From: a virus
Direction: 5' to 3' (one strand)
Length of the DNA stretch: 35,117 nt
Virus record (IMG/VR): IMGVR_UViG_3300046616_000069
Location: 1 to 35,117 of that record
How positions within the stretch are numbered: the stretch's first letter is position 1; every line of letters begins with the position of its first letter. Below, piece by piece: positions 1-35,088 of the stretch. Under the pieces are notes generated by a model. That model did no database searches. It was not told the DNA's origin and worked only from the letters and a program-made list of their open reading frames with translations. The position numbers and the translations under genes are program-made.

Positions 1-1355
1 CGCCCGCCTTCCTCGTGAGGTTTCCCATCGGGTGTCGCGAGGTGGCTGACGAAGTGGATGATGCAGCCCAGCTCGTTTGCGAGGCCGGCCATCTCCTTCA
101 TGATCAGGCCCAGCTCTTCGGCGTCTTCACCGAGGGCCGTCAGGTGGTCGAGGTAGATCAGCTTGATGCCGAGGCTCACCACCATGTAGCGGATGTGCCC
201 CTTGACCAGCTCCCAATCGGTCTGCCCGAAGTTGTCGTAGAAGAAGACCTTCCCGTCCAACTCCTGGGCTGCCCGCGTCAGCTCGTCCGGTGTCCAGCCC
301 CCATCGGGAACGTGGAACATCCTGCCAGCGATCTTGCCGGCCACGCGCTTGGCGGTCTCGACGGGCTTCTGTTCGAGGAAGATTGCCCCGACCGTCTGCT
401 TCAGCTCGACCACGTCAAACGCGATCTGCTGCATCAGGAAGTCCGTCTTGCCGATGCCGGTGCCTGCGCCGAAGCCATAGACCTCGCCGTCGCGCCGACC
501 GTATGTGTGCTTGGTCAACTCCTCGAAGCACCAGGGCAACCCGAAGGTGACGGGCTTGAGCAGCTCGCTCATGATGTCTGACACTCCGACGAGACCGTCA
601 GGGCGGTAGACCTTGGCACCCCAGATGGCGTCGATGGTCTCCTTGATGCGGCCCGCCATGAGCATCTCGTTGGCGTCCTTGAGGGGCAGCGAGGCGATCT
701 TCAGCTTGCCCGGTGTGAACGGGATCAGCTTGCATTCGTCGACTGCCTTCTGGCCGGGATCGTCACCGTCGAACATGAGGACGATCTCCTCGAACTGCTC
801 CAGCCATTGGAGGTTCTTGCGGAGAGCCTTGGCCGCGCCGTCGCAACCGTTGGGGATCGAGACGACAGGCCACTTGTGACCCTGCATCTGGCTGAGCGAG
901 ATCGCGTCCAGCTCGCCTTCGACGATGACGACACGCTTGCCGCCGTCCCGCCACAGCCACTGGCCGTAGAGGCACATATCGTCCTTGTGGCCCTTGGACC
1001 TGAAGTCCTTGCCGGCGAACCTGATCTTCTGCCAGACCAGTTGCTGCGCGCTGTTTCGGTAGTTGAACAAGCGGACGGGATCACCATTCAGGGTCGAACG
1101 GGTGAAGCCCCACTTCTGCGCGCTTTCGAGATTGATGCCTCGGCTTGCCCAATCTGCGGGCTCCCCGAGAGGAACGAAGTCGTTTGTCCGTGGCTCTGCA
1201 GCCTCGGTCTGGTCTGTCAAATTGCTGTCTCCGGGTTCGTGGTGACGGCAGCCAAAGCAGTAGGCGTGGCCGTCCGTGTACCGGGCGAGATTGTCGCGGG
1301 AACCGCACTTTGGGCACGGCTCCTTGCGCAGAAACTCACTGTCGGTTTCGTGCAT
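1..1355 (-). CDS. Primase-helicase, T7 gp4-like (3' end cut by window edge)
   Basis: Bifunctional replication protein: makes RNA primers and unwinds DNA at the phage replication fork. Translating from the ATG at 1355 gives, in order, an N-terminal zinc-binding primase domain with paired cysteines (CPKCGS near residue 14 and CFGC near residue 32), a TOPRIM core (VEGELDA around 895-915, then MFDGDDPGQKA around 745-775), and a RecA-type helicase domain with Walker A GAGTGIGKT around residues 296-304. Near the window edge the conserved IIHFVSHL and HEEGG segments appear, matching T7 gp4 close to its C-terminal part. About 451 residues are visible; T7 gp4 has 566, so roughly 100 are missing. The frame was checked between the start codon and the Walker A region. 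It starts one base pair inside the preceding 47-residue gene's stop region (TGAATG). Confidence is high for identity; the start is supported by AAGG four bases upstream. Confidence 0.95.
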   Translation of the reverse strand, partial: MHETDSEFLRKEPCPKCGSRDNLARYTDGHAYCFGCRHHEPGDSNLTDQTEAAEPRTNDFVPLGEPADWASRGINLESAQKWGFTRSTLNGDPVRLFNYRNSAQQLVWQKIRFAGKDFRSKGHKDDMCLYGQWLWRDGGKRVVIVEGELDAISLSQMQGHKWPVVSIPNGCDGAAKALRKNLQWLEQFEEIVLMFDGDDPGQKAVDECKLIPFTPGKLKIASLPLKDANEMLMAGRIKETIDAIWGAKVYRPDGLVGVSDIMSELLKPVTFGLPWCFEELTKHTYGRRDGEVYGFGAGTGIGKTDFLMQQIAFDVVELKQTVGAIFLEQKPVETAKRVAGKIAGRMFHVPDGGWTPDELTRAAQELDGKVFFYDNFGQTDWELVKGHIRYMVVSLGIKLIYLDHLTALGEDAEELGLIMKEMAGLANELGCIIHFVSHLATPDGKPHEEGG

Positions 1356-2142: not shown

Positions 2143-2379
2143 TCAGGCGACCAGCTTGCGGATGCGCTTGGCGATCTTGTCGGCGTCGGCGGCAGCTTCC
2201 TTCGCGGCAACCTGGGCGGCGACCTTCACGGCGATCTGGGCGTCGAGCAGCTCGGCCTTGACGTTGTGATGGGCGACCACGTTCTCCAGCTCAGCGATGG
2301 CCTTGTTGAAGCCGGCGACGGCCTTGGCGGTCGAGGGAGTGCGCTTGATGAAGTTGATGACGGTGGAGAGGATGCTCAT
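2143..2379 (-). CDS. Hypothetical helical protein (78 aa)
   Basis: Begins MSILSTVINFIKRTPSTAK and continues as a strongly helical, Ala/Lys/Val-rich segment (AAQVAAKEAAADADKIAK) that could form a coiled coil, ending in a basic RIRKLVA. The ATG at 2379 is chosen because it has AAAGG six to ten bases upstream and overlaps the end of the endonuclease I gene by four bases; the reading frame extends further upstream but overlaps that gene. Function is not recognised. Confidence 0.7.
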   Translation of the reverse strand: MSILSTVINFIKRTPSTAKAVAGFNKAIAELENVVAHHNVKAELLDAQIAVKVAAQVAAKEAAADADKIAKRIRKLVA

Positions 2380-2861
2380 TTCTTGACCTTTGATTGAGAG
2401 TTGAGGATTGCGTTCAGTGCCTCCACGCGACCGGAAGTCGGTGGCTCGTCGATCCATGCTTGGGGGATTGACTTGTCCGCGTAGAGGAAGCCTTGGGTTT
2501 CGCACCACATGGCGTAGGTGGTCTGGGACTGCTTGGAGATGCGGGTGCCTGAGCGGCTGAAGACGAACCGGATGTCGAGGTTCGGGTTCTGCTCTTTGAT
2601 CAGCCGGTGCTTCTGACGATCCGCCGTAACGAACTGCCCCTTGGTCTCCACGATGATGCCGTTGCCGAGCAGGCGGAAGTCCGGTGTGTACTTCGCCAGT
2701 CGGGCAGGAACCTCGTAGGTGATCTTGAAGCTCTCGTAGGTGTAGGGGACGGACGCTAGGTCCAATTCCCCTGCCACCTTATCTTCGAGCCCCGAGCGGA
2801 ACCCCTTGGCGACAGCGATCTGCCGCGTCGAGGTCCGCTTAGGGAACGTGCGTCGTGCCAA
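2376..2861 (-). CDS. Endonuclease I / Holliday junction resolvase (T7 gp3-like)
   Basis: Structure-specific nuclease that resolves four-way and branched DNA in replicating phage concatemers and helps degrade host DNA. The 161-residue product is close to T7 endonuclease I (149). The PD-(D/E)xK active site is visible: Glu26 in SGLED, Asp61 in TPDF, and Glu72-x-Lys74 in IVETKG, in the same order and spacing as T7 Glu20, Asp55, Glu65 and Lys67. A basic N-terminus precedes it. It lies three bases downstream of the SSB gene and upstream of the primase-helicase, the same gene order as T7 (2.5, 3, 4). Identification is confident. Confidence 0.93.
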   Translation of the reverse strand: MARRTFPKRTSTRQIAVAKGFRSGLEDKVAGELDLASVPYTYESFKITYEVPARLAKYTPDFRLLGNGIIVETKGQFVTADRQKHRLIKEQNPNLDIRFVFSRSGTRISKQSQTTYAMWCETQGFLYADKSIPQAWIDEPPTSGRVEALNAILNSQSKVKK

Positions 2862-2864
2862 GGC

Positions 2865-3647
2865 TTAGAAGTCTTCTTCGCCTGCAGACTTGCCGCCTTC
2901 GGTCGAGCCGGCGTCGGACTTGTCCTGGCCTTCCTCTTCCTCAGCGAACTCACTCGGGTCGTAGCCGTAGCCTTCCTCTTCACCGAAGCCGTGGCTGTCA
3001 GCGGAGCGGGAGCCGTTCGAGACCAGCTCGATGACCTGGACGCCATTCAACTGCAGCTTGAGGCCAGCGAGGCCCGAGCCGGGGATGAAGTAGCCGATGT
3101 TGCCATCCTTGTCGGTGCCGACCGAGAACGAAATCTTGCCCTCAGAACCACCCCAGATGTTGGGGAGCTTGCCGACCATCTTCTTGCCGCGAGCGTCGTA
3201 GATGTCAGGCGACGATGCCCACTTCTTGCCTTCGCGCGGACCCTTCTTGAACGTGCCCGAGGCCTTCTTGGTGAACTTGAGGCAGACCTCGCCGGTCTCT
3301 TCCTCGGTGTCCTTGTCGTAGAGGGTCTCGAACAGCGAGTTCATGACCGGGCCGGTGACGCCCTTCTTCTCGAACTCCTTACGGGTCTTGACGGACAGCT
3401 CAGCGAACGCCTTCTCGGCATTGCGGCGGGCTTCCTCGTAGAGATCGTTGAGGGTGACGCCATCCTTGTTCTTACGGGAGGCGAACTCTTCCAGCGCGGC
3501 CAGGGACATCTTGCCCTTGACGCTGTATTCGCCATCCGGCTTCGGGAAGTCCTTGTTGCCGTAGTCGGGCTCGGTCACCTTCGGGTAAACGAAGACGACG
3601 CGGGGAGTGGTGAAAGAGGGAGCGGATTTCTTCTTGTCAGATGCCAT
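2865..3647 (-). CDS. Single-stranded DNA-binding protein (T7 gp2.5-like)
   Basis: Coats single-stranded DNA at the replication fork and contacts the polymerase and helicase. 260 residues against 232 for T7 gp2.5. The N-terminal OB-fold part begins MASDKKKSAPSFTT and runs through PRVVFVYPKVTEPDYG; the C-terminus is a long acidic tail (EEEEGQDKSD and so on) ending in EEDF, the aromatic-terminated acidic tail that T7 gp2.5 uses for protein contacts. A TTG two codons upstream is an alternative start; ATG at 3647 is preferred because it follows a purine-rich GAGA. A phage-type promoter motif lies about 10-30 bases upstream, so this gene likely heads the replication operon. Confidence 0.9.
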   Translation of the reverse strand: MASDKKKSAPSFTTPRVVFVYPKVTEPDYGNKDFPKPDGEYSVKGKMSLAALEEFASRKNKDGVTLNDLYEEARRNAEKAFAELSVKTRKEFEKKGVTGPVMNSLFETLYDKDTEEETGEVCLKFTKKASGTFKKGPREGKKWASSPDIYDARGKKMVGKLPNIWGGSEGKISFSVGTDKDGNIGYFIPGSGLAGLKLQLNGVQVIELVSNGSRSADSHGFGEEEGYGYDPSEFAEEEEGQDKSDAGSTEGGKSAGEEDF

Positions 3648-3656
3648 GTGCAATTA

Positions 3657-5152: not shown

Positions 5153-5177
5153 GTGAAATCCTTCGATGAATGTTTCG

Positions 5178-5200
5178 TAGGGCTAGTGGGTGGGTTATGG
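5178..5200 (-). promoter_or_regulatory. Candidate phage RNA polymerase promoter after RNAP gene
   Basis: Minus strand CCATAACCCACCCACTAGCC. The same 18 bases recur at 16411-16428. It stands between the RNAP gene and the 67-aa gene, like the middle-gene promoters that follow gene 1 in T7. Inferred. Confidence 0.55.
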
Positions 5201-5235: not shown

Positions 5236-7752
5236 CTAGGCGAAGAAGAAGTCTGATTGCAGGACCAGAGAGAGGTCCAGGTCTCCTTTCGATGGAAGTT
5301 GCTCGAACTCCTCTGCCATGAGGAGAGCGGATGATTGTTGGATAAGCTCGTCGCGGAGCTTGGTGAGTGGGTCTGTCCTGTACATCTCGACGAACACCTT
5401 GCGGAGGGTCGAGGCGAGCAGGGTCGTGTTGCAGGCGTGGGTGCCATAGCTGTCGTGGATCATAGCGAAGTCGGTGAGACCCCGGTCGGACAGTTCAGCT
5501 ACAGTGAGGGTCATGGCCGATGCGTCCATGGAGTGGACATTGTTTGGGCTGATAGACGTCGCCTGCTTCGAGACGTCGAGCTGGTCGGTGTCCTCGTAAG
5601 CCCTCAGCCTCACCAGCTTGCCGGCGATCTTAGTGTCGATCCTCCGGGGCTTCATGTCGACGTAGCCTTGATAGGCCACGAAACCAGATGGCGTCGTCCA
5701 GTGCATGGGAAGGTTCTCCTTCGCCATCATCCTGGCCGTCTTTTGAAGCCACCCCATAGCCTCCCTTGCGGCGATGACCACGTCCCCGATGCTGTCCCAG
5801 ATGATGCTGGAGAGGAACCCGATGGCCTTCTTCAGCTCGTCACCCAGGTTGTGGACGTAGCCGCCCGCAATCTTAGCCTTCACCGCCTCGTCGACATACT
5901 TCAGGCACGACCGTGGCGTCCCACCGTAGGGCAGCACCATGACCGGGCGCTTGGTGATCTTGCGGTCGATCCCCATGGTGAGCCATTCGTGAGCCCACCG
6001 TCCCCTTTCTGCAATCGTCCCTTCAGTGGAGACAATTTGACGCAGTTGTTCCATCACACGGTCAGCGACCACCTGATAGATGTCCTGCGGCTTGGCTGCA
6101 GGGATCAGGTTCACCGCCCGCCCGCCGACACTGTCGAGGAGCATGGCCGAGAAGTGCTGCAGCCCGTTGCAGGAGCCGTCGAGGGCGATGGGAAGGTGCG
6201 AGATGAAGTCAGCGCCGTAGCCCCCGTCGACCCAGTCCCGGTACTCGAAGCAGAACGCGAGGAAGCACCAGGGCTTGTCAGCCTCGGTCCACCAGAGATT
6301 GCCAATAGGGTCGCTGGCGCAGCGGATGATCTGTCGCCAGTTATCCTCGACCCATTTGACGCGCTCGTCGAACGACACCTTGTCGACGCCGAACGTGTTC
6401 GCACCGTGGATCATAAGCCAGCGCGCACCGTCCACCCCAATAGGCTTCCCCTCAGCGAACCGAAGCAGGGCCTTCACCGGGTCACTGCCCTGCGGGTGCA
6501 GGACCAGCGGCACCGGATAGGCGCGGCCACGGAAGTCGAGGTTGTGCGGGAAGTAGATCGCCTTCTCGTCACGGAACCGCTCAGCGAGCCCCAGCATGGT
6601 CTCCTGATGGAGCCGATCCTGACGGAGCTGAAGGTTGAGCGAGTAGACGTCTCGGGCTGCCCACTTCCACTCTTGGAACTGCTTCTGCATGGCCGGCGAG
6701 AGGGTCTTGAGGTCGACACCTTCAGGGACACCCTCAGGGCGGGCCGGCTTGGGGCTGTCACCGGGCACGAGGCCGGCGATGCCTTCCTTCGACTTGGCCA
6801 GCGCCTTCATGACGTCGAGGACCGGCTGATTGATCTGCCAAGGTGTTCTCTGGATGGCGTTGAGGCCCTTCAGAAGGACGGCCTTATGTTGTGCCTCAGC
6901 CAGCTTCCGCTTGAGTAGCTCGAACTGCTTCTTGTTGGCCCTACGAACCAGCGGCAGGGGCCTGTCGAGGTCTGTGTAGTAGCCGCCACCCGAGAGCCCA
7001 ATCCAGTCCTTTGGCGGGATCAGCATCGGAAGGAAGTCGGGGAACAGGTACTCGCCCCCACGGATGGACTGGTCGATCCACGCCTCGGCGCGCTCGGTCA
7101 GGTGGACGAGGTACTGGTCCTTTGGGGCGTTCTTGTCACCACCCTCGAAGGCCTGCCGGATCATGGTCAGGCCGGTGTTCTCTCCGAACAGCTCGACCAA
7201 CCGGATGCCGAGGTGGATCATGTCGGTGCGGCTCCAGCGGTCCCACGGGATGCCGCATTTGCCCATGGCATAGGTGAGGACCACAGCCTTGTGCTGCTCT
7301 GTCGCACCGTCGTCGGACAGCTTGCGAAGCTCGTAGTCGAACTTGTCCTTGTCCTGCTTGCGGAACTCGGTGAAGCGGGCCTCCAGCTCGACCGCACGGG
7401 CAACCGCCACGGCCAGCGTCATAAGGACCGGAGCGCGTGGCTTCATCATGCGCCCGAGGATGGCCCTGCAGGCGAGATAGGAAACCACGTCGTGATCCAT
7501 ATCCTTGATCAGCTTGGCGGCTGTGGCGCGGGGCCTTGCACGACCCGAGTAGGCTTCCTCAACGAACTTGGTAATCCCCGCCGAGACGGGACCGACCACG
7601 CTTTCGAGGATCGAGCGCCCCGTATCAGTCTCATAGCCGCGCTCCTTGTCAACGTTCTTGCGGACCCGAGAGAGATAGCGATCTCGCCCGAGGCCCGACA
7701 TTTCGATCTCCAGCTCGATCTGGCGCTGGATGAGGTGGTCGTGATGGGTCAT
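5236..7752 (-). CDS. Single-subunit DNA-directed RNA polymerase (T7 gp1-like)
   Basis: Transcribes the phage middle and late genes from phage-specific promoters. 838 residues against 883 in T7. Diagnostic segments: DxxGR-type DFRGRAYP at residues 406-413; motif A with catalytic Asp525 in LDGSCNGLQH; motif B Lys601-Arg602 to Tyr609-Gly610 in KRPVMVLPYGG; motif C with His766-Asp767 in MIHDSYGTH; and a C-terminal foot ending SDFFFA, like FAFA in T7. The N-terminus LIQRQIELEIEM fits the family, which supports ATG 7752 (GGAGA nine bases upstream, overlapping ATGA within the previous frame). The previous reading frame continues 104 bases into this gene. Early transcription by host polymerase should make this enzyme first. 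Confidence 0.98.
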   Translation of the reverse strand: MTHHDHLIQRQIELEIEMSGLGRDRYLSRVRKNVDKERGYETDTGRSILESVVGPVSAGITKFVEEAYSGRARPRATAAKLIKDMDHDVVSYLACRAILGRMMKPRAPVLMTLAVAVARAVELEARFTEFRKQDKDKFDYELRKLSDDGATEQHKAVVLTYAMGKCGIPWDRWSRTDMIHLGIRLVELFGENTGLTMIRQAFEGGDKNAPKDQYLVHLTERAEAWIDQSIRGGEYLFPDFLPMLIPPKDWIGLSGGGYYTDLDRPLPLVRRANKKQFELLKRKLAEAQHKAVLLKGLNAIQRTPWQINQPVLDVMKALAKSKEGIAGLVPGDSPKPARPEGVPEGVDLKTLSPAMQKQFQEWKWAARDVYSLNLQLRQDRLHQETMLGLAERFRDEKAIYFPHNLDFRGRAYPVPLVLHPQGSDPVKALLRFAEGKPIGVDGARWLMIHGANTFGVDKVSFDERVKWVEDNWRQIIRCASDPIGNLWWTEADKPWCFLAFCFEYRDWVDGGYGADFISHLPIALDGSCNGLQHFSAMLLDSVGGRAVNLIPAAKPQDIYQVVADRVMEQLRQIVSTEGTIAERGRWAHEWLTMGIDRKITKRPVMVLPYGGTPRSCLKYVDEAVKAKIAGGYVHNLGDELKKAIGFLSSIIWDSIGDVVIAAREAMGWLQKTARMMAKENLPMHWTTPSGFVAYQGYVDMKPRRIDTKIAGKLVRLRAYEDTDQLDVSKQATSISPNNVHSMDASAMTLTVAELSDRGLTDFAMIHDSYGTHACNTTLLASTLRKVFVEMYRTDPLTKLRDELIQQSSALLMAEEFEQLPSKGDLDLSLVLQSDFFFA

Positions 7753-8623: not shown

Positions 8624-9658
8624 TCAGCTCACGATCCGAAGGTTCGGACCAGCGCCACCTTCGAGGACAGCGAGGTTGTCCATGAGGTGCTTCGGCGCGA
8701 GGTGAGCGTAGCCCAGCGTGGTCTGGTAGGAGTTGTGCCCCATCCATTCCTTGACGCGCAGGAGGTCGACGCCGCGCTGCACTTGCCATGACGCACAGGT
8801 GTGCCGACAGGTGTAGACCACGGTGTCGCTGAGCTGCGGGAGGTGGCCACGGACGTTGCGCCACAGCTCGATCATCTGCCACTCGGTGATGTCGGTCCAT
8901 GGTCCCTCGTGGTTGCCCTTGAGAGCCTTCTGGCGAGCGACAGCTTCGAGCGCCCGAGTGGTCAGCGGGATCGTCCTGGCCTTGCCCGTCTTGGTGAGCT
9001 GAAGCTCCCCGAAGGTGACCGTGCGGTCGCGAAACTGAGACCAGCGCGACGAGGTGCCTTCCGAGTACGGGCGAGCGCCGGTGTCGATCAGGAAGATGAA
9101 CAGGTCCCGCTCGGACAGCCTGCCCCACAGCGTGAGGGTCTGGATCACAAGCGCGACCTCCTCCTCGGTGAAGTAGCGGAGCCGGCTTGGACCCTTCTCC
9201 TGATACTTCAGCTCTGGCCGCGCGACGCGGGCGAACTTGATCAGGACCGAGATCGACGACAGGTAGCGATTGATCGTCGAGCCGGTGACCTTGCGGTCGT
9301 TCTTGAGGTGGCGCACGAACTCGTGGATTTTGTCCTCGTGCAGGGCTGCCTTGGCCGGCGTCTTGGCACCGACCCACTCGACGAACTTCTCGGCATTGAG
9401 GACGGCCCGCGTCGAGCCGCGCTGGTATGCCCAACGCTTCTCCTTCGCGGCGCGCAGGGCGTTGCCGATGGAGCCTGCATCTGCCCCACCGATCTGTTGC
9501 TCAGGCGCATCAGGCAGGGGCTTACCCAGCTTGAGCGCCGTGCGTGTCTCCAGCTCCCACTTGACAGCCAGATCGTGCGTCTCGAACTGCTTGCGATAGC
9601 GCTCGCCCTTGACGACGAACTCTGCCTGATAGCCACTTCCGCGCGGACTGACTGCCAT
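8624..9658 (-). CDS. int: Tyrosine-family site-specific integrase
   Basis: Catalyses integration and, with helpers, excision of the phage. 344 residues: an N-terminal arm-binding part, a SAM-like core-binding domain (about 58-150), and a catalytic domain (about 160-330). Active-site residues: Arg196 (DTGARPYSE), Lys223 (LTKTGKAR), Arg285 (YTCRHT), His308 (MGH), and nucleophile Tyr317 (LGYAHL). The first His of the usual HxxR box is Tyr282 here. Start ATG 9658 is chosen because GGGGAG is eight bases upstream; the frame continues upstream into the MarR-like gene, four bases away. It is likely co-transcribed with that regulator, and the attP-like segment directly follows. Confidence 0.95.
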   Translation of the reverse strand: MAVSPRGSGYQAEFVVKGERYRKQFETHDLAVKWELETRTALKLGKPLPDAPEQQIGGADAGSIGNALRAAKEKRWAYQRGSTRAVLNAEKFVEWVGAKTPAKAALHEDKIHEFVRHLKNDRKVTGSTINRYLSSISVLIKFARVARPELKYQEKGPSRLRYFTEEEVALVIQTLTLWGRLSERDLFIFLIDTGARPYSEGTSSRWSQFRDRTVTFGELQLTKTGKARTIPLTTRALEAVARQKALKGNHEGPWTDITEWQMIELWRNVRGHLPQLSDTVVYTCRHTCASWQVQRGVDLLRVKEWMGHNSYQTTLGYAHLAPKHLMDNLAVLEGGAGPNLRIVS

Positions 9659-9662
9659 GTGA

Positions 9663-10019
9663 TTAGCTCCCCAGAATGTTGATGAGGGTGTTGAAGACCT
9701 TGGTGCCCTTCGGTGTCGGTCTGACACGCTTGATGCGGCGATCCATGGCGTCCTCAAAGGTGGTGATGAGGTCGTGCCCAGGCTGCCCCTTGCGGTGCGT
9801 CTTGGACAGGGCCGATACGTTCCGGCTGATTGACGACGAGCTGAGGCCGGTTGCCTGCTCCAGCTCCCGCATGGTCAGCTCGGGCTTCCCCATGACGTGG
9901 AGGAAGATGGCGATCTGTTGGATTTGCATTTCAGCGTCGAGCTTGCCGAACTCCTCAATGAAGGAGAGCAGTCGCCGCGCTGTCTTGTTCTCGGTCTGAC
10001 GACCGGCAAAGGTGTTCAT
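9663..10019 (-). CDS. MarR-like winged-helix regulator
   Basis: 118 residues. Helices at about 12-50, then a winged helix: LTMRELEQATGLSSSSISRN (recognition helix SSSSISRNVSAL) and a wing leading to RIKRVRPTPKGTKVF, the typical MarR ending 'DxRxKxxxLTxxG'. It should bind DNA as a dimer. It is directly upstream of the integrase in one operon with GAGGGA before ATG 10019, and has a sigma70-like promoter (10052-10080). A likely role is control of integrase or lysogeny, inferred from position only. Confidence 0.8.
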   Translation of the reverse strand: MNTFAGRQTENKTARRLLSFIEEFGKLDAEMQIQQIAIFLHVMGKPELTMRELEQATGLSSSSISRNVSALSKTHRKGQPGHDLITTFEDAMDRRIKRVRPTPKGTKVFNTLINILGS

Positions 10020-13022: not shown

Positions 13023-13565
13023 TCAGTTTGCCCATGGGTCAGTCAGGACGGTTTCGCCCGTCGAAGGCCTGACCATGTAGTTGTTCTGGTGACAGTCGCG
13101 CATGAGCGGAACACCCATCTCGCCGAGGCGGTCTTGGATGCGCTCGTTGCGCCGTTGGAAGGCCCGCATTGATGGCGACAGGCCGGCGCGGTTGTTCCAG
13201 TCGCGGTAATCCTTCAGGCCCTCGGAGTGATAGCGGGCCTGATCGAGGTGGATAAGCGGCTCCATCTCGGCATAGAAGTAGCCGTCATAGACCTCGACCG
13301 CGTACACCTTGGGAGCGTGTGGCGAGCGCGTCTTGACGTTGGCCTTCACGTAGTTAAGCCAGCCGTCGCGCTGCTCACCGCCCCACATGAAGCTGCCGAT
13401 CTTAAGGACCGTGTCGGGGCAGTCAGGGTGCCGATACACCGCGCCGTAAGCGCCGTTGCCGAGCCTGATCCAGCCGGAAGCCTCAAGCCGCTCTCTGGCC
13501 GCGTAATAGTCGGCCTTGTTCTCGGGGTGAGCGGTGCCCTTATGCGAAACAAAAGTGGTGGACAT
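13023..13565 (-). CDS. Small protein-kinase-like protein (T7 gp0.7-like position)
   Basis: 180 residues with remnants of a protein-kinase fold: glycine loop LGNGAYGAVYRH (35-46), a possible ATP-anchoring Lys55 in TVLKI, a catalytic-loop-like MRDCHQNNYM with Asp157 and Asn161 or Asn162, and a DFG-like TDPWA with Asp176 almost at the C-terminus. The chain is short for a full kinase, so the C-lobe is minimal or absent. T7 gene 0.7 encodes an early Ser/Thr kinase that shuts off host transcription; this gene is in a comparable early place. AAGGAGA is seven bases before the ATG. Enzyme activity is inferred. Confidence 0.7.
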   Translation of the reverse strand: MSTTFVSHKGTAHPENKADYYAARERLEASGWIRLGNGAYGAVYRHPDCPDTVLKIGSFMWGGEQRDGWLNYVKANVKTRSPHAPKVYAVEVYDGYFYAEMEPLIHLDQARYHSEGLKDYRDWNNRAGLSPSMRAFQRRNERIQDRLGEMGVPLMRDCHQNNYMVRPSTGETVLTDPWAN

Positions 13566-13634: not shown

Positions 13635-13653
13635 TGCGTGAGTGGAGGGGTTA
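13635..13653 (-). promoter_or_regulatory. Candidate phage promoter upstream of kinase-like gene
   Basis: Minus strand TAACCCCTCCACTCACGCA. The TAA is also the stop codon of the upstream GP88-like gene. Shares AACCCCTCCACTC with the motifs at 3657-3678 and 8381-8400. Inferred. Confidence 0.55.
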
Positions 13654-14421
13654 GCCGATGACGAAGCCCGAAGTGTCCTTCTTGGCCGGTCCCTTGGCGT
13701 AGAGCCCGACGATGACACCCATCGGGTCAGAGAAGCGCATGTCGGTTTCGTCGCCGTCGATCACGTCGCGGCCCATGAAGGACATTGACGGGTTGGCGAC
13801 CTTGTCATCGCGCAGCGCCTTGCTGCGGTAGACCACGGCGATGTTGATCCCGGTCTTGGCGGCAGTGTCGAGAACCGCCTCGGCATAGAACGGGCTGGCC
13901 GCGCTATAGGACAGGGTCAGGCTGTAATTGGCCGGCAGCGCCCGATAGGCCCGCTTGTAAATCTTGGTGTAGTCGTAGAACCGCACCTCAGGGAAAGCCT
14001 CGAAGATGGACCCGAAGCGCTCGCCGTCGCGGTAGCAGGGATGCGCCACCTCCCATTGAATGTCGCTTGTGCCATTGAGGCGCACGGCAGCCTTGACACC
14101 CTTGCGCTCGCAGTAGCGAACGAAGGCGGCAACGTCCTTGACCAAGTCGGCCATGAACACGGCGCGGTCCCTGAAATAGCGTTGGGTCTTGGCTATGCGC
14201 GCCTCGACAATGGAAGAGAACATGCCGGCGCGGCCAGCCTTGGACAGGCAGCCCATCTCGCACCCTGCAGTGATCGCCATAGGGCAGACGTTGCCGAGCA
14301 GCGATTGAGCAGCCGGCGCGAGATACATGATCGCGGTTTCATATTCGCCCATCTTGTCGCCTTTGATGGTCTTGGCGTTGCCGCCGCTGCGAATGGTCTT
14401 GGACTTGAAGAGCTTAGCCAT
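13651..14421 (-). CDS. GP88-family protein (256 aa)
   Basis: Resembles the 'gene product 88' phage family, as I recall it, throughout: NAKTIKGDKMGEYETAIMYL at the N-terminus, cysteine-rich NVCPMAITAGCEMGCLSKAG, RYFRDRAVFMADLV, VRLNGTSDIQWE, RFYDYTKIYKR and DMRFSDPMGVIVGL near the end. Three to four cysteines suggest a metal site; the biochemical role of the family is unknown. It is an early gene, starting after GTGAGG, about 55 bases downstream of the palindromic promoter-like element at 14456-14496. Identification is fairly confident, function not. Confidence 0.75.
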   Translation of the reverse strand: MAKLFKSKTIRSGGNAKTIKGDKMGEYETAIMYLAPAAQSLLGNVCPMAITAGCEMGCLSKAGRAGMFSSIVEARIAKTQRYFRDRAVFMADLVKDVAAFVRYCERKGVKAAVRLNGTSDIQWEVAHPCYRDGERFGSIFEAFPEVRFYDYTKIYKRAYRALPANYSLTLSYSAASPFYAEAVLDTAAKTGINIAVVYRSKALRDDKVANPSMSFMGRDVIDGDETDMRFSDPMGVIVGLYAKGPAKKDTSGFVIG

Positions 14422-15382: not shown

Positions 15383-15603
15383 TTTTGCCCGTGTTTGCGC
15401 CTGTCAAAGAACAGAGAGCCGATGGTCTGGCAGTCTTTAGAATGAGGCCCCTTGGTGCCCCGAAACTCGTACCGATGAAGCTGGTCTAGTGGAACCCGAG
15501 AACCTCGCCGCCCCGAACCGCTTCGTTCGATGAATGGAAGATAGACCCAAGCGGGATCATTGCGCAAGTGCCTTGGATTAAAAAAACGACAGATAGGGCT
15601 CAT
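15373..15603 (-). CDS. Possible small basic early protein (76 aa)
   Basis: Reads MSPICRFFNPRHLRNDPAWV, then YLPFIERSGSGRRGSRVPL and ends FFDRRKHGQKPP. Rich in Arg, His and Lys. AGG lies eight bases before the ATG. It falls in the repeat-rich leader and lacks recognised homology, so it may be a chance reading frame; an early small inhibitor gene is equally possible. Confidence 0.35.
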   Translation of the reverse strand: MSPICRFFNPRHLRNDPAWVYLPFIERSGSGRRGSRVPLDQLHRYEFRGTKGPHSKDCQTIGSLFFDRRKHGQKPP

Positions 15604-15704
15604 TTTGTGCCTAACCCTATGAAATCATTGAGAAAGAAAGTTTGAAGAAATCCCCGCGGTGCCTATTGGTGCGCCCTAGTGCAACCATTTCAAGCCCCAT
15701 TGGT

Positions 15705-16010
15705 GCGCCTCATGGTGCCTATGCGGTGCCTGGGTCATATCGTGCCATTGGTGCGCCTCATGGTGACCCTAGCGCGCGCCTCATGGTGAACCGTGCGGGA
15801 TATCGCCGGGTCATTTTGTGACAGATTGGCAAAACCACCGATTGGCAGACAAGGGAATAAACATTCCAGCCTTGGAACGCCCATTCCATGCGCCTCATGG
15901 TGCGCCTCATGGTGCGCCCTATGGTGCCCGATTGGTGCGCCTCATGGTGCCTAAGGGTTCTGTGATCCCTTGCAGTGCCTTGGAACGTAAGGCCTTGCGC
16001 CTCATGTGTG
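15705..16010. repeat. Array of GCGCCTCATGGTG repeats
   Basis: The 13-base unit, often preceded by TTG or TG, occurs near 15705, 15753, 15776, 15890, 15902, 15937 and, with changes, 15914 and 15997. At 15890-15926 the copies are tandem with a 12-base period. It is too irregular and short for CRISPR. It lies at the genome end. Confidence 0.75.
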
Positions 16011-16195
16011 GGGAAATGTGTGGGAGAACGTGCGATCACGCGCGACTAAGACCACGCGCATCACACCCGGGCGGGCGCGGATTAATGACTGGCCGAAGGC
16101 ACCCCCACGGGGGGTCGGCGCGCGTGCCTGTTATCCGATCACCCGTAAGGAAATTTGCTCCAAATATTCCGACCCCCCTCAGGTTCACCCCAGGT

Positions 16196-16445
16196 ACACC
16201 CTAAGGCAGTCCGATGGGTTCCCCTGAAGGGAGGTGGTCTAGGTGTCTCCTGACTACCCTGATCCCCCTAAGGCACCCCTCGGCTGCACCACAGGGAGAA
16301 CTGCTGGGGCTGCTGAGGGATGCTCTCAGGTGTCACCTTAAGGGTCTACCTAAGGGATCACATCAGGTGTCACCTTAAGGGTAACCCTAAGGGGGAACCA
16401 TCGGGGTAGTGCTAGTGGGTGGGTTATGGGAATGGGAGCCTTAAG
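16196..16445. repeat. CCTTAAGG / CCCTAAGG repeat cluster near terminase end
   Basis: CCTAAGG- and CCTTAAGG-type words occur at about 16199, 16264, 16336, 16349, 16373, 16384 and 16438. Two copies of a 20-base direct repeat, TCAGGTGTCACCTTAAGGGT, lie at 16326-16345 and 16363-16382 (37-base period). T7 carries short CCTAAAG-type repeats beside its terminal repeat. Confidence 0.7.
16407..16428 (-). promoter_or_regulatory. Candidate phage promoter after terminase
   Basis: Minus strand CATAACCCACCCACTAGCAC, the same 18 bases as at 5182-5199. It would transcribe the terminal region and early genes, or prime replication or packaging, as some end-located T7 promoters do. Inferred. Confidence 0.5.
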
Positions 16446-16451
16446 GGGGAC

Positions 16452-18164
16452 CTAGAGGGCGAACCGAGGGGGCGACCGTAGGGAGCCACCGAGGGCCGTC
16501 TCCATGAACTTAGCCAGTTCGGCGTCGAGCAGCTCCTGCTTCCTCACCTCCACAGCCACGGTCGTGTTCCTGGCCATCCATTCCAGCCAGTAGGCGACAC
16601 AGCCGGCAACAGCATCGAGCCTGTCGTCATGAGCCAGGGCTCCCCGGTTCTTGGTGATCCGGGTCATCTGGTAGAACAGGCGGTACTTGTTGACCTCGTC
16701 GGTGGGCAGGGCAGCGGTGCTGTCGTAGTCCCACTCGATGACCTTGGGATCGACCACCAGTCTGTGCTGGTTCATGATCGGCTCAAGGGTGTCGATGATG
16801 CGGGCTTCCTTCTGGGCCTTCGACCACTCGGCGTCCTCGATCAAGACCGGGTAGCGGAGCTGGGCTCTGGCACGGAGGAGCTGGGCGAACATGCCGTCGC
16901 CGTAGTTGGGCTCGACCTTGATGACGTTGACGCCCTGTTCCTTGGCGCAGTCGAGGATTTGATCCAGAACCTTGTCATCGTAGCCGTGGCCTCGGGCACC
17001 ACCGACAGCGGTCAGATATAGGATGCCGTTGAGCATCTTGACCACAGCCCAGGCTGTCTCGTCCTTGCCGCGACCCGAGGGATCGACGAACATGGCCGTG
17101 CCGTCGTAGTCGACGAAGTCCTTGTCGGTGAAGATCGGACGGTGCAGCCGGTCGCCGGGAAGGCCAACCATGGGCAGCTTCTCGATCACCTGTTCGGGAC
17201 CGGAGCCCCACACGACCTCTCTCGGGGCCTTGCGAGGGTTCAACCCCATGATGATCAGATCGGACAGCTTCAGGGGGAACCTGTCTTCGTCCGAGAGGCT
17301 GGTGTCGAGGTAGAACTGGAGGGCGAAGCCTGAGCGCCCGTAGGACATCTCACGCTCGGTCAGGTCGATCTCTGTGAACCGCTGAGGGTCCGTCGTGCCA
17401 CCCACGAGGTCAGGCGTCTGATCCAGCAGATGGGCGATCATTGGGGCCAGCTTGGAGCCGTACTTGGCGCGGCGTTCCTCGTCGGGATAGCGAGCCGGCC
17501 AGATGCGGCAGACGTAGCCACGGTCAGGCAGGAGGTTGTAGATCGACTGCTCGGTCTGCGGGGTGCCGAGGTAGATGATGCGACCACCCGGCGACAGCAC
17601 GGCGTCGAACTCCTTGATCTGTTCGGAGAGCTTCTCGCGCTTGAGGTGGGTGTCTGAATTGTTCGGGACTTCGATGTCGTCAGCGATGATCACGTCGGCG
17701 CGGGAGCCGGCGATCTGCGAGGTGATGCCCAGGGACTTCACAGACGGGCTGTGGGACGCACGGGCGGGGCCGACGTCAAAGGCTACCTTGGACTGGCGCT
17801 GGTCTGCTGTGGGCCTCAGGTGGGCCAGCAATTCCATCTCAAAGATGAGGCGCATGGTGAAGGTCGAGAAGTCGTCCGAGCGCTGCTTGGAGGCCGAGAT
17901 GACGAGGACCTTGGTCTGCGGATTGCAGTAGAGAAGCCAGCACACGAAGGCCGAGGTGACCCAGGATTTGCCGACGCCACGGAAGGCTTCGATGATGAGG
18001 CGCTTCGGGCCATGCTGCAGGAAGGAGGCGATGTCGTACTGGACCTTCGTGGGGTCCGGTAGGGCGAGGTGTTTCCAGACCACGTACAGGAAATTGCGGA
18101 AGTCGCGGAGAGGGTCTGACTGCGACGACAACGAGGTCGAGGCAGATAGCGTCTGCTTGGTCAT
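16452..18164 (-). CDS. Terminase large subunit (T7 gp19-like)
   Basis: ATP-driven DNA packaging motor and end-cutting nuclease. 570 residues against 586 in T7 gp19. ATPase: Walker A FRGVGKS (61-67, with Lys66), Walker B VIIADD (158-163). Nuclease: Asp361 in MFVDPSGRGKD with Asp368, and AHDDRLDAV (Asp513, Asp514, Asp517). RBS AAAGGA precedes ATG 18164. A candidate phage promoter sits about 55 bases upstream, inside a long inverted repeat, so it may have its own transcript. It is the last late gene; the repeat-rich terminal region follows directly. Confidence 0.97.
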   Translation of the reverse strand: MTKQTLSASTSLSSQSDPLRDFRNFLYVVWKHLALPDPTKVQYDIASFLQHGPKRLIIEAFRGVGKSWVTSAFVCWLLYCNPQTKVLVISASKQRSDDFSTFTMRLIFEMELLAHLRPTADQRQSKVAFDVGPARASHSPSVKSLGITSQIAGSRADVIIADDIEVPNNSDTHLKREKLSEQIKEFDAVLSPGGRIIYLGTPQTEQSIYNLLPDRGYVCRIWPARYPDEERRAKYGSKLAPMIAHLLDQTPDLVGGTTDPQRFTEIDLTEREMSYGRSGFALQFYLDTSLSDEDRFPLKLSDLIIMGLNPRKAPREVVWGSGPEQVIEKLPMVGLPGDRLHRPIFTDKDFVDYDGTAMFVDPSGRGKDETAWAVVKMLNGILYLTAVGGARGHGYDDKVLDQILDCAKEQGVNVIKVEPNYGDGMFAQLLRARAQLRYPVLIEDAEWSKAQKEARIIDTLEPIMNQHRLVVDPKVIEWDYDSTAALPTDEVNKYRLFYQMTRITKNRGALAHDDRLDAVAGCVAYWLEWMARNTTVAVEVRKQELLDAELAKFMETALGGSLRSPPRFAL

Positions 18165-18275: not shown

Positions 18276-20726
18276 TTAGATGATCTTGAACGAGGTGATC
18301 AGGCGACGGCTGAGGGTCGTCGGGATGTTGTAGGTTCCCGCCGATACCGCAACGCGCTGCTTGGAGCCGTCGTCGAACGTGAAGACACCATCGGTGCTGG
18401 ACGCCGGGATCGTGAGGCTGATCGCGTCAGCCGCAGAGGATGCCGCCGCTGTGGTGAGCGGGAATGGCGTATTGATCGCAGCGGTAGCCGAGCCGGTGCC
18501 GACGATGCTGACGCCACAGTGGACCACGTCGAACGTGAGCGAGGACTGGCCTGCCACGTTGGTGAGCTGGAACACCATGCTGGAGTTGCCGGCGAGGATA
18601 TTCGGCACGTCGATCACGTCCCAGCCACCCGTGAAGGTGTGCAGGAAGGACGTGTTCGGGGTCGAGGCCTGACCGGGCGTGTAGGACAACGTGACCTGTT
18701 GCCCAGCGGTGCCCTTCACGATGGCCTTAGCGGACCTGTAGTTGGCCGATCCGGTGACCGTGCGGCGGGCGTAGCCAGCAGCCGTCGACATGACGATGCG
18801 GCTGGACACGATGGTGCCCTCGGGGCCTACAGCGCCGCCACCTGGGGTGCAGACCGCAGCCGAGTAGACCCAGTTGCCTGCATTGTCTGGCAGCGTCGGG
18901 AAGAGCTTGTAGTCGACGATGGGCTCGACCACGAGACCCAGGGAGCCGCGCTTCGGCGTGTTGGCCGGGTAGAGCGTGGTCATCCGGTAACCGTAGCCTG
19001 CGGTTGCGCGAACGGTCGTCAGAGTGGCCGTGGAGCTTCCGTCAGTCGTACCGCTGGTCTTGTGGGTGTCAGCGATGAAGTCATACTCGGACTTCCAAGC
19101 CGGGTTCGGTACGTTGACCGAGGGGGACAGGGAGGTTGCCGAGCGACCCTTGGCCATGTTCGCCGCGCCCACAGTCCACCAGAGCGTGGAGCCGCCATCT
19201 GCCGCGACCTGGGTGTACGACAGGTTGCCGCTTGAGTAGGTCGAGGAGACGAAGACGCCGTCGCGATAGAGGTTGTACTGGAACGACTGCGACGAGGTGT
19301 TGGTGCTGGTGAGGCCCGACCAAGTGCCGGGGTTGACGGTAAGCACGTTGCCAACGCCTGGGGTGCCCGAGACGGACGGCAGGACGCTGTTCACCGGGAG
19401 CGTGGTCTGACCCCATGTGATGTGCGGATCGGTCATCGGACCCATGTAGACGCGATGCACCTTGGTCTGGTACGCGGCGCGGCCACGGTCGATGGTGAGG
19501 ATGATCTTCGGGACGGTCGCGGTGGCCCTGCTTTGGATCGGCGGGGCGGCAGCCTTGACCTTGCCGGTGGTGACCGAGGCCAGATCACCAAACAGGGTGC
19601 GGACGGAGGTCACCGGGTTGTCGGGATTGACGACGCCGTTGATGATCTCAAGCTGAGGGTTGCGGCTACCCGCGCCAACCTCGAACTCCATCCATGGCTT
19701 GTACCATTGGCTGGCCGTAGGGGTGACCGAGGGGAGCGAGATGGTCAGCACGTCAGAGCCGGTGCCCGAGCCAGGGACGATGTCCATGACCAGCGACTGC
19801 CCACCCGTGTCAGGGTTGGCGACCAGCGAGAACGCTACGGTCGACGTCGGGGTGGCCGAGAGGGCTGCGGTCCAGCCGGTCGGAAGGTTGCCGCTGATGC
19901 CGGTGCCAGACGCCGCCACGGTGCCGGGGAGAGACCCGGAGGTGATGATGTTGCCGGTGGCCCAGAAGTTGTCGACCAGCCAGGACGAGTTCTTGGTGTT
20001 GTCCATGACTGCCTCAATAGCCGCGAGCATGGCAGTGCCAGCCGTGTAGCCGCCGAGTGCGGATGGGTGCAGATCGTCAGCGTTCAACATCCCGGTCTTC
20101 GGGGTGCCGTCAGCGTTGGTCACCGCGTCGAAGATGTTGACGTAGTGGCACCACGTCGGGTTCGCGTCACAGAACGCCTTCAGGAGCGCGTTGTAGGCTC
20201 GCTGATCGGACGGCGTAGAGCCAACGCTCTGGGTCGGACCCTTCGGCCAGATCGAGCGGATGAAGACGTGCTTCACGCCAGCGTTGTGAGCCGTCGTCGC
20301 CATGCCGGTGTAGGCTGCGGCTGTTGCTGCCACGGTGCCGCTGCCGACGTTGTCGTTGGTCCCGCCCGCGATGATGAGCGCGTCAGGCATGAGGCCGATA
20401 GCGTCAGGCAAGCGGAGCCCGATACCCGTCAGGGTCTGGCCAGCAATGCCCATGTCACCACCGAACCAGCCGGGGTTAGTGGCGCTGTCGGAGCCCCAGA
20501 TGTCGATGTTGAAGTTGCCCTTGAGGGAGGCTGCCGTCTCTAGCTCGCCAGCGTTGCTGAAGCTGAGCAGAGAGGTCGAGAGAGCCGCGCCGTACTGCGT
20601 AATGCTGTCCCCGAGCTGGGCGATGCGAGAGGCATAGGTGAGCAGCGTGGGAGAACTTATTGCTGTGGCCCCCGACAGGACGTCCCGAAGGACGCCCCGC
20701 AGGACCGAGCGGGTGACAGTTGCCAT
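18276..20726 (-). CDS. SGNH/GDSL-hydrolase spike-like protein (816 aa)
   Basis: Likely a virion esterase or deacetylase that trims a cell-surface polymer during adsorption. N-terminal short anchor MATVTRSVLRGVLRDVLSG, then SGNH blocks: GDSIT (39-43, nucleophile Ser41), GGTND (121-125), and DDLHPS with Asp217 and His220. The catalytic domain ends near residue 245; the rest is beta-rich and includes an Ig-like segment (GTPGVGNVLTVNPGTWSG, then YNLYRDGVFVSS). It overlaps the upstream stop (TAATG) and ends just before terminase, an unusual place for a spike, between the terminase subunits. An alternative is a depolymerase-like tail fibre. Confidence 0.8.
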   Translation of the reverse strand: MATVTRSVLRGVLRDVLSGATAISSPTLLTYASRIAQLGDSITQYGAALSTSLLSFSNAGELETAASLKGNFNIDIWGSDSATNPGWFGGDMGIAGQTLTGIGLRLPDAIGLMPDALIIAGGTNDNVGSGTVAATAAAYTGMATTAHNAGVKHVFIRSIWPKGPTQSVGSTPSDQRAYNALLKAFCDANPTWCHYVNIFDAVTNADGTPKTGMLNADDLHPSALGGYTAGTAMLAAIEAVMDNTKNSSWLVDNFWATGNIITSGSLPGTVAASGTGISGNLPTGWTAALSATPTSTVAFSLVANPDTGGQSLVMDIVPGSGTGSDVLTISLPSVTPTASQWYKPWMEFEVGAGSRNPQLEIINGVVNPDNPVTSVRTLFGDLASVTTGKVKAAAPPIQSRATATVPKIILTIDRGRAAYQTKVHRVYMGPMTDPHITWGQTTLPVNSVLPSVSGTPGVGNVLTVNPGTWSGLTSTNTSSQSFQYNLYRDGVFVSSTYSSGNLSYTQVAADGGSTLWWTVGAANMAKGRSATSLSPSVNVPNPAWKSEYDFIADTHKTSGTTDGSSTATLTTVRATAGYGYRMTTLYPANTPKRGSLGLVVEPIVDYKLFPTLPDNAGNWVYSAAVCTPGGGAVGPEGTIVSSRIVMSTAAGYARRTVTGSANYRSAKAIVKGTAGQQVTLSYTPGQASTPNTSFLHTFTGGWDVIDVPNILAGNSSMVFQLTNVAGQSSLTFDVVHCGVSIVGTGSATAAINTPFPLTTAAASSAADAISLTIPASSTDGVFTFDDGSKQRVAVSAGTYNIPTTLSRRLITSFKII

Positions 20727-20986
20727 TAGTCGAAGAGGTCGACGACAGCCGTGCCAGAGGTGAAGCCACCGGTCTTCACGCCGATGCGGAAGTACCAAGC
20801 GGAGCCGGCGTCACCAGTCTTCTCGACCGGGGCCGTGAAGGTCTCGACGTCGAGCCAGGTAACCTGATCCTTGGAGCGCTGGAGGACCACGGTGGCGACG
20901 AACGTGCCGCTGACCGTGATGTCGAACTTGTTGGCTGCCTGGATGAGGATCGGCGTGGTGAAGGTGTTCTGAGCGGTGATGTTCAC
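20726..20986 (-). CDS. Small beta-rich protein (86 aa)
   Basis: MNITAQNTFTTPILIQAANK, TVSGTFVATVVLQRSKDQ, DVETFTAPVEKTGDAGSA, ending TAVVDLFD: a compact beta-sandwich-like domain. It is similar in character to small phage spike or decoration domains. The stop overlaps the SGNH protein start (TAATG), and its ATG overlaps the terminase small subunit's stop, so the two products may assemble or be coupled. Function is inferred. Confidence 0.7.
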   Translation of the reverse strand: MNITAQNTFTTPILIQAANKFDITVSGTFVATVVLQRSKDQVTWLDVETFTAPVEKTGDAGSAWYFRIGVKTGGFTSGTAVVDLFD

Positions 20987-34155: not shown

Positions 34156-35088
34156 TTAGGCCGTAGCCAGCTCCAGACCGCATTCCGGACGGAGACCGCC
34201 GTGACCGACAGCGTACTTGGCGACGATCAGGGTGCCCTGACGCGAGACCATGTATTCGCTCTCGATAGCGACATCGAGCAGCTTCACAGTGCCAGCGAGG
34301 CCCTTGTTGAAGATGATGCCGGCAGTTGCCGTGAAGTCGCCCTGGTACTTGGTCGGGCCGGTTGCAACGGTCGTGCCGTTCGGGAGGTTCAGCGACTTGA
34401 AGACCGGGATGTCCGCGATCTTGAAGACCTTACCGTCCGAATAGGAACCCTTGCCGTCCCAGTCCTTGTTGATGACCTTGGTGTTCTGGGCCAGGGCGTA
34501 GTACTGCACCGGCTTCAGAGCAGCCTGACGCTCAGCCGGGATGTACTTGGCATCCAGAGCAGCAGCCGCGTCGAAGAAGGCCGCAGCCATCTTGTCGCTG
34601 TCCGTGAGCAGAGCCGCGTTGACGATCTTGCCGCCACCGGGGAGGTTGTCCACGACGTTCGACATACGGGTCGTCAGGATCATGGTGCGAGCCACGTTCC
34701 GGTCGTATGCCTGGGCCAGCTCTTCACCGAGCTGCTTGGTCATCTCCGAGCGGGTCTCGAAGTGGTTCATCGCCTCGTAGATGTTGGCGGTGAAGTAGTC
34801 GGTCAGCAGGAGGTCGTCGATGGTGATGACGCGCTCGTTGAACTTGGTGACCGTACCGAGGACCTGATCGCCCGGGGTGTGGTAGCGGGCACCCGAGGTG
34901 CGGCCCGTTACGGGGAAGGAAGCGGACTTGCCTTCCGAAATGTTGCGGACCATGTGCTTGTCCGCGAACTCGACAGTGCGAGTGAATGCAGTCAGGATTT
35001 CGCCGGTTGCGACCTTGACGAAGTTCGCCTGAACGTCGCCAGCGCCGTTGGCCTGACCGAGATTGGATACGATGCCAGGATTGGCCAT
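34156..35088 (-). CDS. Major capsid protein (T7 gp10A-like)
   Basis: 310 residues against 345 in T7 gp10A. Recognisable segments: VKVATGEILTAFTRTVEFAD, HMVRNISEGKSASFPVTGRT, DDLLLTDYFTANIYEAMNHF, AQAYDRNVARTMIL and the late KLLDVAIESEYMVSRQGTLI. It forms the icosahedral shell. ATG 35088 follows GGGAAT. The terminator after it is expected to make its transcript abundant. Scaffold and portal should lie upstream beyond the window edge. Confidence 0.95.
   Translation of the reverse strand: MANPGIVSNLGQANGAGDVQANFVKVATGEILTAFTRTVEFADKHMVRNISEGKSASFPVTGRTSGARYHTPGDQVLGTVTKFNERVITIDDLLLTDYFTANIYEAMNHFETRSEMTKQLGEELAQAYDRNVARTMILTTRMSNVVDNLPGGGKIVNAALLTDSDKMAAAFFDAAAALDAKYIPAERQAALKPVQYYALAQNTKVINKDWDGKGSYSDGKVFKIADIPVFKSLNLPNGTTVATGPTKYQGDFTATAGIIFNKGLAGTVKLLDVAIESEYMVSRQGTLIVAKYAVGHGGLRPECGLELATA

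Follow-up and report, generated by a model that had tools for sequence, protein, structure and literature searches.

We examined a window that comprises a whole virus record of 35,117 bases. All of its family-assigned genes lie on the minus strand, tail and internal virion protein genes included, and a non-coding gap separates the terminase gene from the early region. The following genes were assigned by family matches:

34156-35088, minus strand: capsid
16452-18164, minus strand: terminase large subunit (TerL, T7 gp19 type), 570 aa (PHROG 38, E 6.5e-113; Pfam Terminase-T7_RNaseH-like)
9663-10019, minus strand: MarR-type regulator, early region
8624-9757, minus strand: tyrosine integrase, early region
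5236-7752, minus strand: single-subunit RNA polymerase, early region
2865-3653, minus strand: ssDNA-binding protein, early region
2376-2861, minus strand: endonuclease I, early region

The single-subunit RNA polymerase, the T7-type terminase and the capsid together identify an autographivirus. The nearest sequenced phage is Mesorhizobium phage vB_MloP_Lo5R7ANS (Pairvirus), with a terminase 81.3% identical. No exact end repeat of 15-399 bases was found in the window, and its two ends match Lo5R7ANS positions 18319 and 27927. The window therefore lacks ~9.6 kb present on the Lo5R7ANS map, with the genes for DNA polymerase, exonuclease, portal and scaffold, and is a fragment running across the joined ends of the genome. 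Upstream of the terminase gene, an 840-aa ORF (18276-20798, minus strand) has a GDSL-like lipase domain near its N-terminus, and minus-strand segments 13651-14421 and 13023-13565 of the early region hold a GP88-family member and a sequence that weakly matches the kinase family of the T7 gp0.7 type.

Because TerL occupies 16452-18164 on the minus strand, the repeat region singled out in the initial annotation (16196-16445) sits immediately past the terminase stop codon. Along the minus strand the order is terminase, promoter copy, array, end box, predicted ~300-bp terminal repeat and second array. The features are:

16406-16428, minus strand: predicted phage RNA polymerase promoter in the phiOR position, with a 22-mer twin at 5177-5198
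5177-5199, minus strand: second copy of the promoter, directly following the RNA polymerase gene (sequence match)
16363-16382, plus strand: 20-base direct repeat, copy 2, exact, TCAGGTGTCACCTTAAGGGT
16326-16345, plus strand: 20-base direct repeat, copy 1, exact, TCAGGTGTCACCTTAAGGGT
16176-16404, minus strand: right-hand array of 12-13-base units (CCTTAAGG, CCTTAGG and CACCTGA types), T7 SRR counterpart (from shuffles, alignment and period)
16140-16174, minus strand: end box ahead of the terminal repeat, degenerate, with TTA where relatives have GAG
15839-16139, minus strand: predicted direct terminal repeat, a single copy in the joined contig; its left end is at 16139 or 16146, and the right one was placed by Lo5R7ANS homology
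15662-15949, minus strand: second array, of CACCATGAGGCG units, T7 SRL counterpart; part inside the predicted terminal repeat, part beyond
15580-15598, minus strand: CCCTATCTGTCGTTTTTTT, putatively class II terminator-like from its sequence, also in several aligned relatives

SRR and SRL denote the right and left short-repeat arrays of T7.

The initial annotation had pointed to palindromic CCTTAAGG-type words and to a 20-base direct repeat with a 37-base period beside the terminase gene. Both are present beyond the level of 1000 shuffles, and the start-to-start distance of the two repeat copies is exactly 37. CCTTAAGG occurs three times in the entire window, each time at this locus (16336-16343, 16373-16380 and 16439-16446); the third copy extends one base beyond the end of the annotated region and lies between the terminase stop and the promoter. 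CCTAAGG is found at 16200, 16267, 16349 and 16386, and elsewhere in the window at 15950 and 34120. None of 1000 dinucleotide-preserving shuffles of 16196-16445 reached two CCTTAAGG, four CCTAAGG or a 20-base exact repeat (the longest exact repeat in the shuffles was 14), and the 15 occurrences of the looser CC-N3-4-GG were equalled once. These words recur within an array whose units are 12-13 bases long, and in the alignment the 37-base repeat period corresponds to three units. The lag-12 z was 5.8 for 16196-16445 and 6.0 for 16173-16400, figures to be read beside the 5.9 of the terminase gene, which served as a control and whose value falls within a codon pattern (lags 6, 9, 15 and 21 also raised); this codon-type pattern is absent from the array.

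We tested for array words in the first 250 nt past the terminase gene of the window and of 79 of 80 terminase-relative loci (L065 was too short), using 200 shuffles and p < 0.05. The words were over-represented in 20 of the 80 sequences, including all 16 that were aligned, against ~4 expected by chance; no excess was found at L020-L025 and L029 (74-76% terminase identity) or at most of the more distant loci. In the 150 nt ahead of the end box, 6 of 50 sequences had an excess. The order of promoter then array is kept in the 16 aligned relatives. Slippage could generate simple repeats of this kind, which would be tolerated without function in a non-coding gap. Such an origin would fit the wide variation of array sequence among clades, the autographiviruses in which an array is undetectable (phiKMV, P-SSP7) and the lack of excess at L020-L025 and L029. 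However, GTGACACCTGA units are kept in register across 15 aligned sequences, an 18-mer of the repeat occurs in only four viral contigs, all of terminase-bearing relatives, and junctions of distant phages again show a ~12-base period, built from different sequences. We therefore consider functionless slippage products unlikely.

Comparison of the region against its own record gave a 24-base match at 5177-5200 (96%). The 22-mer, with up to 3 mismatches allowed, is found only at 16406-16427 and 5177-5198, both on the minus strand, where 0 sites are expected. The two copies follow the terminase and the RNA polymerase gene, the places of phiOR and phi1.1 on the T7 map, and probably act as promoters for the phage RNA polymerase. 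Lo5R7ANS has its own promoter pair, past the terminase and before the head genes, whose upstream half differs from that of the window (7-8 mismatches in 23); promoter sequence thus shifts among relatives while the place, and the array behind it, stay. In the LUZ100 record a mapped phage promoter, phi8 (36750-36799), lies behind the terminase gene; the LUZ100 promoters were mapped by ONT-cappable-seq (PMC10134795). Two promoter types, AATAACCCACCCACTAG and AATAGGGCCTCTACTAG-like, precede a similar array in the window (16406-16428) and at L008, L010, L014 and L018, which suggests, as far as sequence can tell, that RNA polymerase specificity may have switched among close relatives.

The array begins within ~20 nt of the promoter core and could act as RNA, either as a structured 5' leader of the phiOR transcript or as a terminator, with its palindromes pairing in the transcript. 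Its strand folds better than all 200 shuffles (z -3.5 as RNA, -3.7 as DNA), but palindromic repeats fold well anyway, a similar period is present on both flanks of the terminal repeat, and the single Rfam match in 15500-16500 is far below the cut-off. ARAGORN found no tRNA. Among the 6 pairs in the consensus fold of 15 aligned relatives there is no pair-keeping two-sided change, and since no compensatory change was seen the case for a structured RNA is weakened; we rejected it as improbable, its strong fold z-scores being unaccompanied by covariation.

The deposited end repeat of Lo5R7ANS is 246 bp long (1-246 = 45473-45718, identical apart from a single N). In the alignment its start corresponds to window position 16146, or to 16139 when the leading seven bases are discounted, and its end to 15839. 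Each of these positions falls in a block conserved among 12 aligned sequences. The initial annotation had named genome ends far from the repeats as the finding that would speak against a packaging site. The homologue of the deposited end of this nearest relative instead lies ~60 nt past the array and the annotated region. Short-repeat arrays flank the predicted terminal repeat on both sides in the window, and the right-hand array and the 15662-15949 array are its two top ~12-base-period regions. The predicted right end reads CAATCG/GTG, and the ATCTGTT pause site is absent there; other phages have an ATCTGTT-like sequence at the right end of the terminal repeat. Class II sites, with the core ATCTGTT, are known from the T7/T3-type concatemer junction (PMC11617373). 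ATCTGTC occurs only at 15826-15820 and 15594-15588, so the terminal repeat could be longer than predicted.

In Lo5R7ANS a DUF982 ORF lies on the opposite strand (45175-45426) between the array and the terminal repeat, and in relatives the end box lies at anything from ~260 to ~2400 nt past the terminase gene. On these two grounds the gap between terminase and terminal repeat looks like a place where cargo genes enter.

The integrase and MarR-type regulator genes of the window raise the alternative that the repeats serve the integrase as arm sites or belong to the phage attachment site. The integrase gene is ~6.4 kb away, however, a similar array is present in T7 and SP6, neither of which has an annotated integrase, and the locus is internal to the contig, not terminal, in relatives such as L009. 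We set this alternative aside on position and regard it as very improbable.

The deposited terminal repeat starts exactly 6 nt past a AAAAATCTGAG-type box in T7, T3, gh-1, HTVC019P and Pasto. In P-SSP7, Syn5 and K1F a looser box, identified by eye, ends 6 nt before the repeat, which brings the exact offset to eight autographiviruses in all, on the basis of their deposited repeats. The rule was formed partly from T7, T3, HTVC019P and Pasto, and the pattern used in the comparison had been loosened after earlier inspection of ends; of the two records fetched afterwards, gh-1 obeys the offset and phiKMV does not. The T3 repeat start agrees with ends mapped by sequencing (PMC3896407), and that of Pasto is a PhageTerm prediction. 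As deposited, LUZ100 (18 nt) and Lo5R7ANS (-1 nt) are exceptions. No T7-type end box precedes the deposited terminal repeat of SP6 or phiKMV. Just ahead of the right terminal repeat, at comparable places, both phages carry AATTTTGATAT, which may represent a second end-box class; the corresponding pattern was found in none of 81 sequences (the window and 80 loci).

Fixed end-box patterns missed P-SSP7, Syn5 and K1F (3/3) and miss the aligned box of the window. A 28-nt profile was trained on T7, T3, gh-1, HTVC019P and Pasto and run on both strands of eight other end-repeat records. P-SSP7 and Syn5 gave rank 1 at the exact start and K1F hit the exact start but at rank 24, all three ends having been inspected before the profile was built, though they were absent from its training. 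LUZ100 gave rank 1 at -12 and Lo5R7ANS rank 1 at +7. The deposited starts of SP6, phiKMV and the non-autographivirus LUZ24 ranked 1415, 75 and 3172. With one record left out at a time (T7, gh-1, Pasto and HTVC019P, but not T3, whose close relative T7 remained in the training set), T7, gh-1 and Pasto ranked 1 and HTVC019P 3. The best site in the window on either strand is 16139, with a score of 11.1 against 10.9 for the next site. P22 (16.1) and lambda (14.7), which have no such site, score higher by chance, and the best site of HTVC011P (15.6) lies away from its junction; the support from the window match is agreement of place, not score. In Roseobacter phage CRP-125 the profile scores 27.4 at 37452, inside the deposited record and ~1.5 kb from its end, and for that reason the record appears not to start at a physical end.

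Of the same 81 sequences, 41 had TTTGG.{2,4}AAA[AT][AT]T..GA in sense and 0 in antisense, and 40 and 4 had the simpler AAA[AT][AT]T..GAG; among sequences with at least 1500 nt downstream, the combined form was present in 52/71 in sense and 4/71 in antisense. Since the patterns were drawn from related sequences, these counts describe the box and do not test it independently. The exact 19-base box pattern was found in 15 stretches of viral contigs, 10 of them on contigs of the terminase-relative set and 2 more beside a terminase relative; the remaining three (L118, L121, L130), with no terminase in the stretch examined, are probably chance matches. Three of 15 terminase relatives from bacterial assemblies (L098, L101, L102) carry the patterned box within the stretch examined.

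We scanned whole records in 250-base windows for ~12-base self-similarity relative to other lags, with junction intervals (2-7% of each record) set by hand from gene maps, some of them inspected beforehand. Of 14 autographiviruses, 8 have the junction at rank 1 (the window, Lo5R7ANS, LUZ100, Pasto, T7, SP6, gh-1 and K1F), and it takes rank 2 in HTVC019P and rank 8 in Syn5. The junction is far from the top in phiKMV (170), P-SSP7 (297, or 141 when the full record is scanned), HTVC011P (67) and CRP-125 (84). An exact end repeat is lacking from the HTVC011P and CRP-125 records, whose ends may therefore not be physical. Among the controls, P22 ranks 773, lambda 174 and LUZ24 3. Lags 10-13 are all raised, which makes the period about 11-13 and not exactly 12. 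The period is thus neither universal nor exclusive for autographivirus junctions. LUZ24, which is outside the Autographiviridae and has direct terminal repeats, shows ~12-base periodicity at its ends (76-325 and 45376-45625).

We conclude that the array is the counterpart of the T7 right-hand short repeats. With good probability, the locus makes up the right-hand half of a concatemer junction of the T7 type, in an autographivirus that carries an integrase; its function is deduced from sequence. Its anatomy recurs in relatives and coincides with the deposited end of Lo5R7ANS. The packaging or concatemer-processing role proposed in the initial annotation gains support from that end, from the profile site at 16139 and from the promoter position, and is probably correct. 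The phage RNA polymerase would start at the phiOR-type promoter past the terminase gene and proceed on the minus strand across the 12-13-base array and on through end box and terminal repeat, and the terminase complex would be loaded at the transcribed junction. In vivo packaging of T3/T7 needs transcription by the phage RNA polymerase (PMC1828717), and PMC3276506 describes pausing of the polymerase-lysozyme complex at the concatemer junction and its encounter with gp18 and gp19; a similar pausing step may take place here. The array would provide a repeated DNA contact for the terminase complex, presumably for small-terminase subunits at about one per unit; one contact per unit would explain why spacing is conserved as sequence changes. 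Terminase would then cut 6 nt past the end box, which would generate the left genome end of the window phage.

A broader proposal is tentative, and we give it somewhat less than an even chance: that autographiviruses share a two-part packaging signal, made up of an end box of the TTTTGG-N3-AAAAATCTGAG type and flanking arrays selected for a spacing of ~12 bases. The deeply conserved end box would fix the terminase cut exactly 6 nt downstream. In the arrays spacing and not sequence would be selected, as expected from the idea of a terminase ring, if the ring of subunits makes one DNA contact in each unit. T7-like phages known as metagenomic contigs or prophages often come without their physical ends. 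If the two-part signal is real, the end box alone would predict where genomes physically end in contigs and prophages; should the box and the spacing rule both be valid, genome ends and terminal repeats become predictable from sequence and the role of the T7 short-repeat arrays becomes testable. Two features extend beyond the known T7-type site: an end box at a 6-nt offset, and arrays that keep a period without a sequence. The open-access literature searched yielded no description of either. Among the matches listed for AAAAATCTGAG there was no phage paper by title, and among those for CCTAAAG no T7 paper by title.

The integrase-bearing lineage of the window probably retains a T7-type packaging junction. 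Pseudomonas phage LUZ100 and Rhizobium phage Pasto, also integrase-bearing and T7-like, have terminases 59% and 54% identical to that of the window. Both have an end box near the repeat start and a junction that is the top ~12-base-period region, but their array words differ from CCTTAAGG, the deposited LUZ100 repeat lies 18 nt and not 6 past its box, and the right-side segment of Pasto alone shows no period. In Lo5R7ANS the promoter, array, end box and terminal-repeat blocks align with those of the window; the divergent promoter half, the opposite-strand DUF982 ORF and an intact end box set it apart. Relative to T7 and T3, the window bears an integrase, its units are of the CCTTAAGG and CACCTGA types and not CCTAAAG, its array follows directly behind the promoter and not behind the small gene 19.5, its end box is degenerate, and ATCTGTT is absent at the predicted right end. 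The T7-like placement claimed in the initial annotation holds, both in the order of elements and in the phiOR-position promoter. Its statement that the sequence differs holds only in part: the T7 right-hand array contains CCTAAGG, a word also present in the window array, twice, and the window is thus nearer to T7 in sequence than had been supposed. The window shares with T7 and T3 the 11-13-base period and the order of terminase, promoter, array, end box, predicted terminal repeat and second array; its end box, in degenerate form, would correspond to the AAAAATCTGAG/A box.
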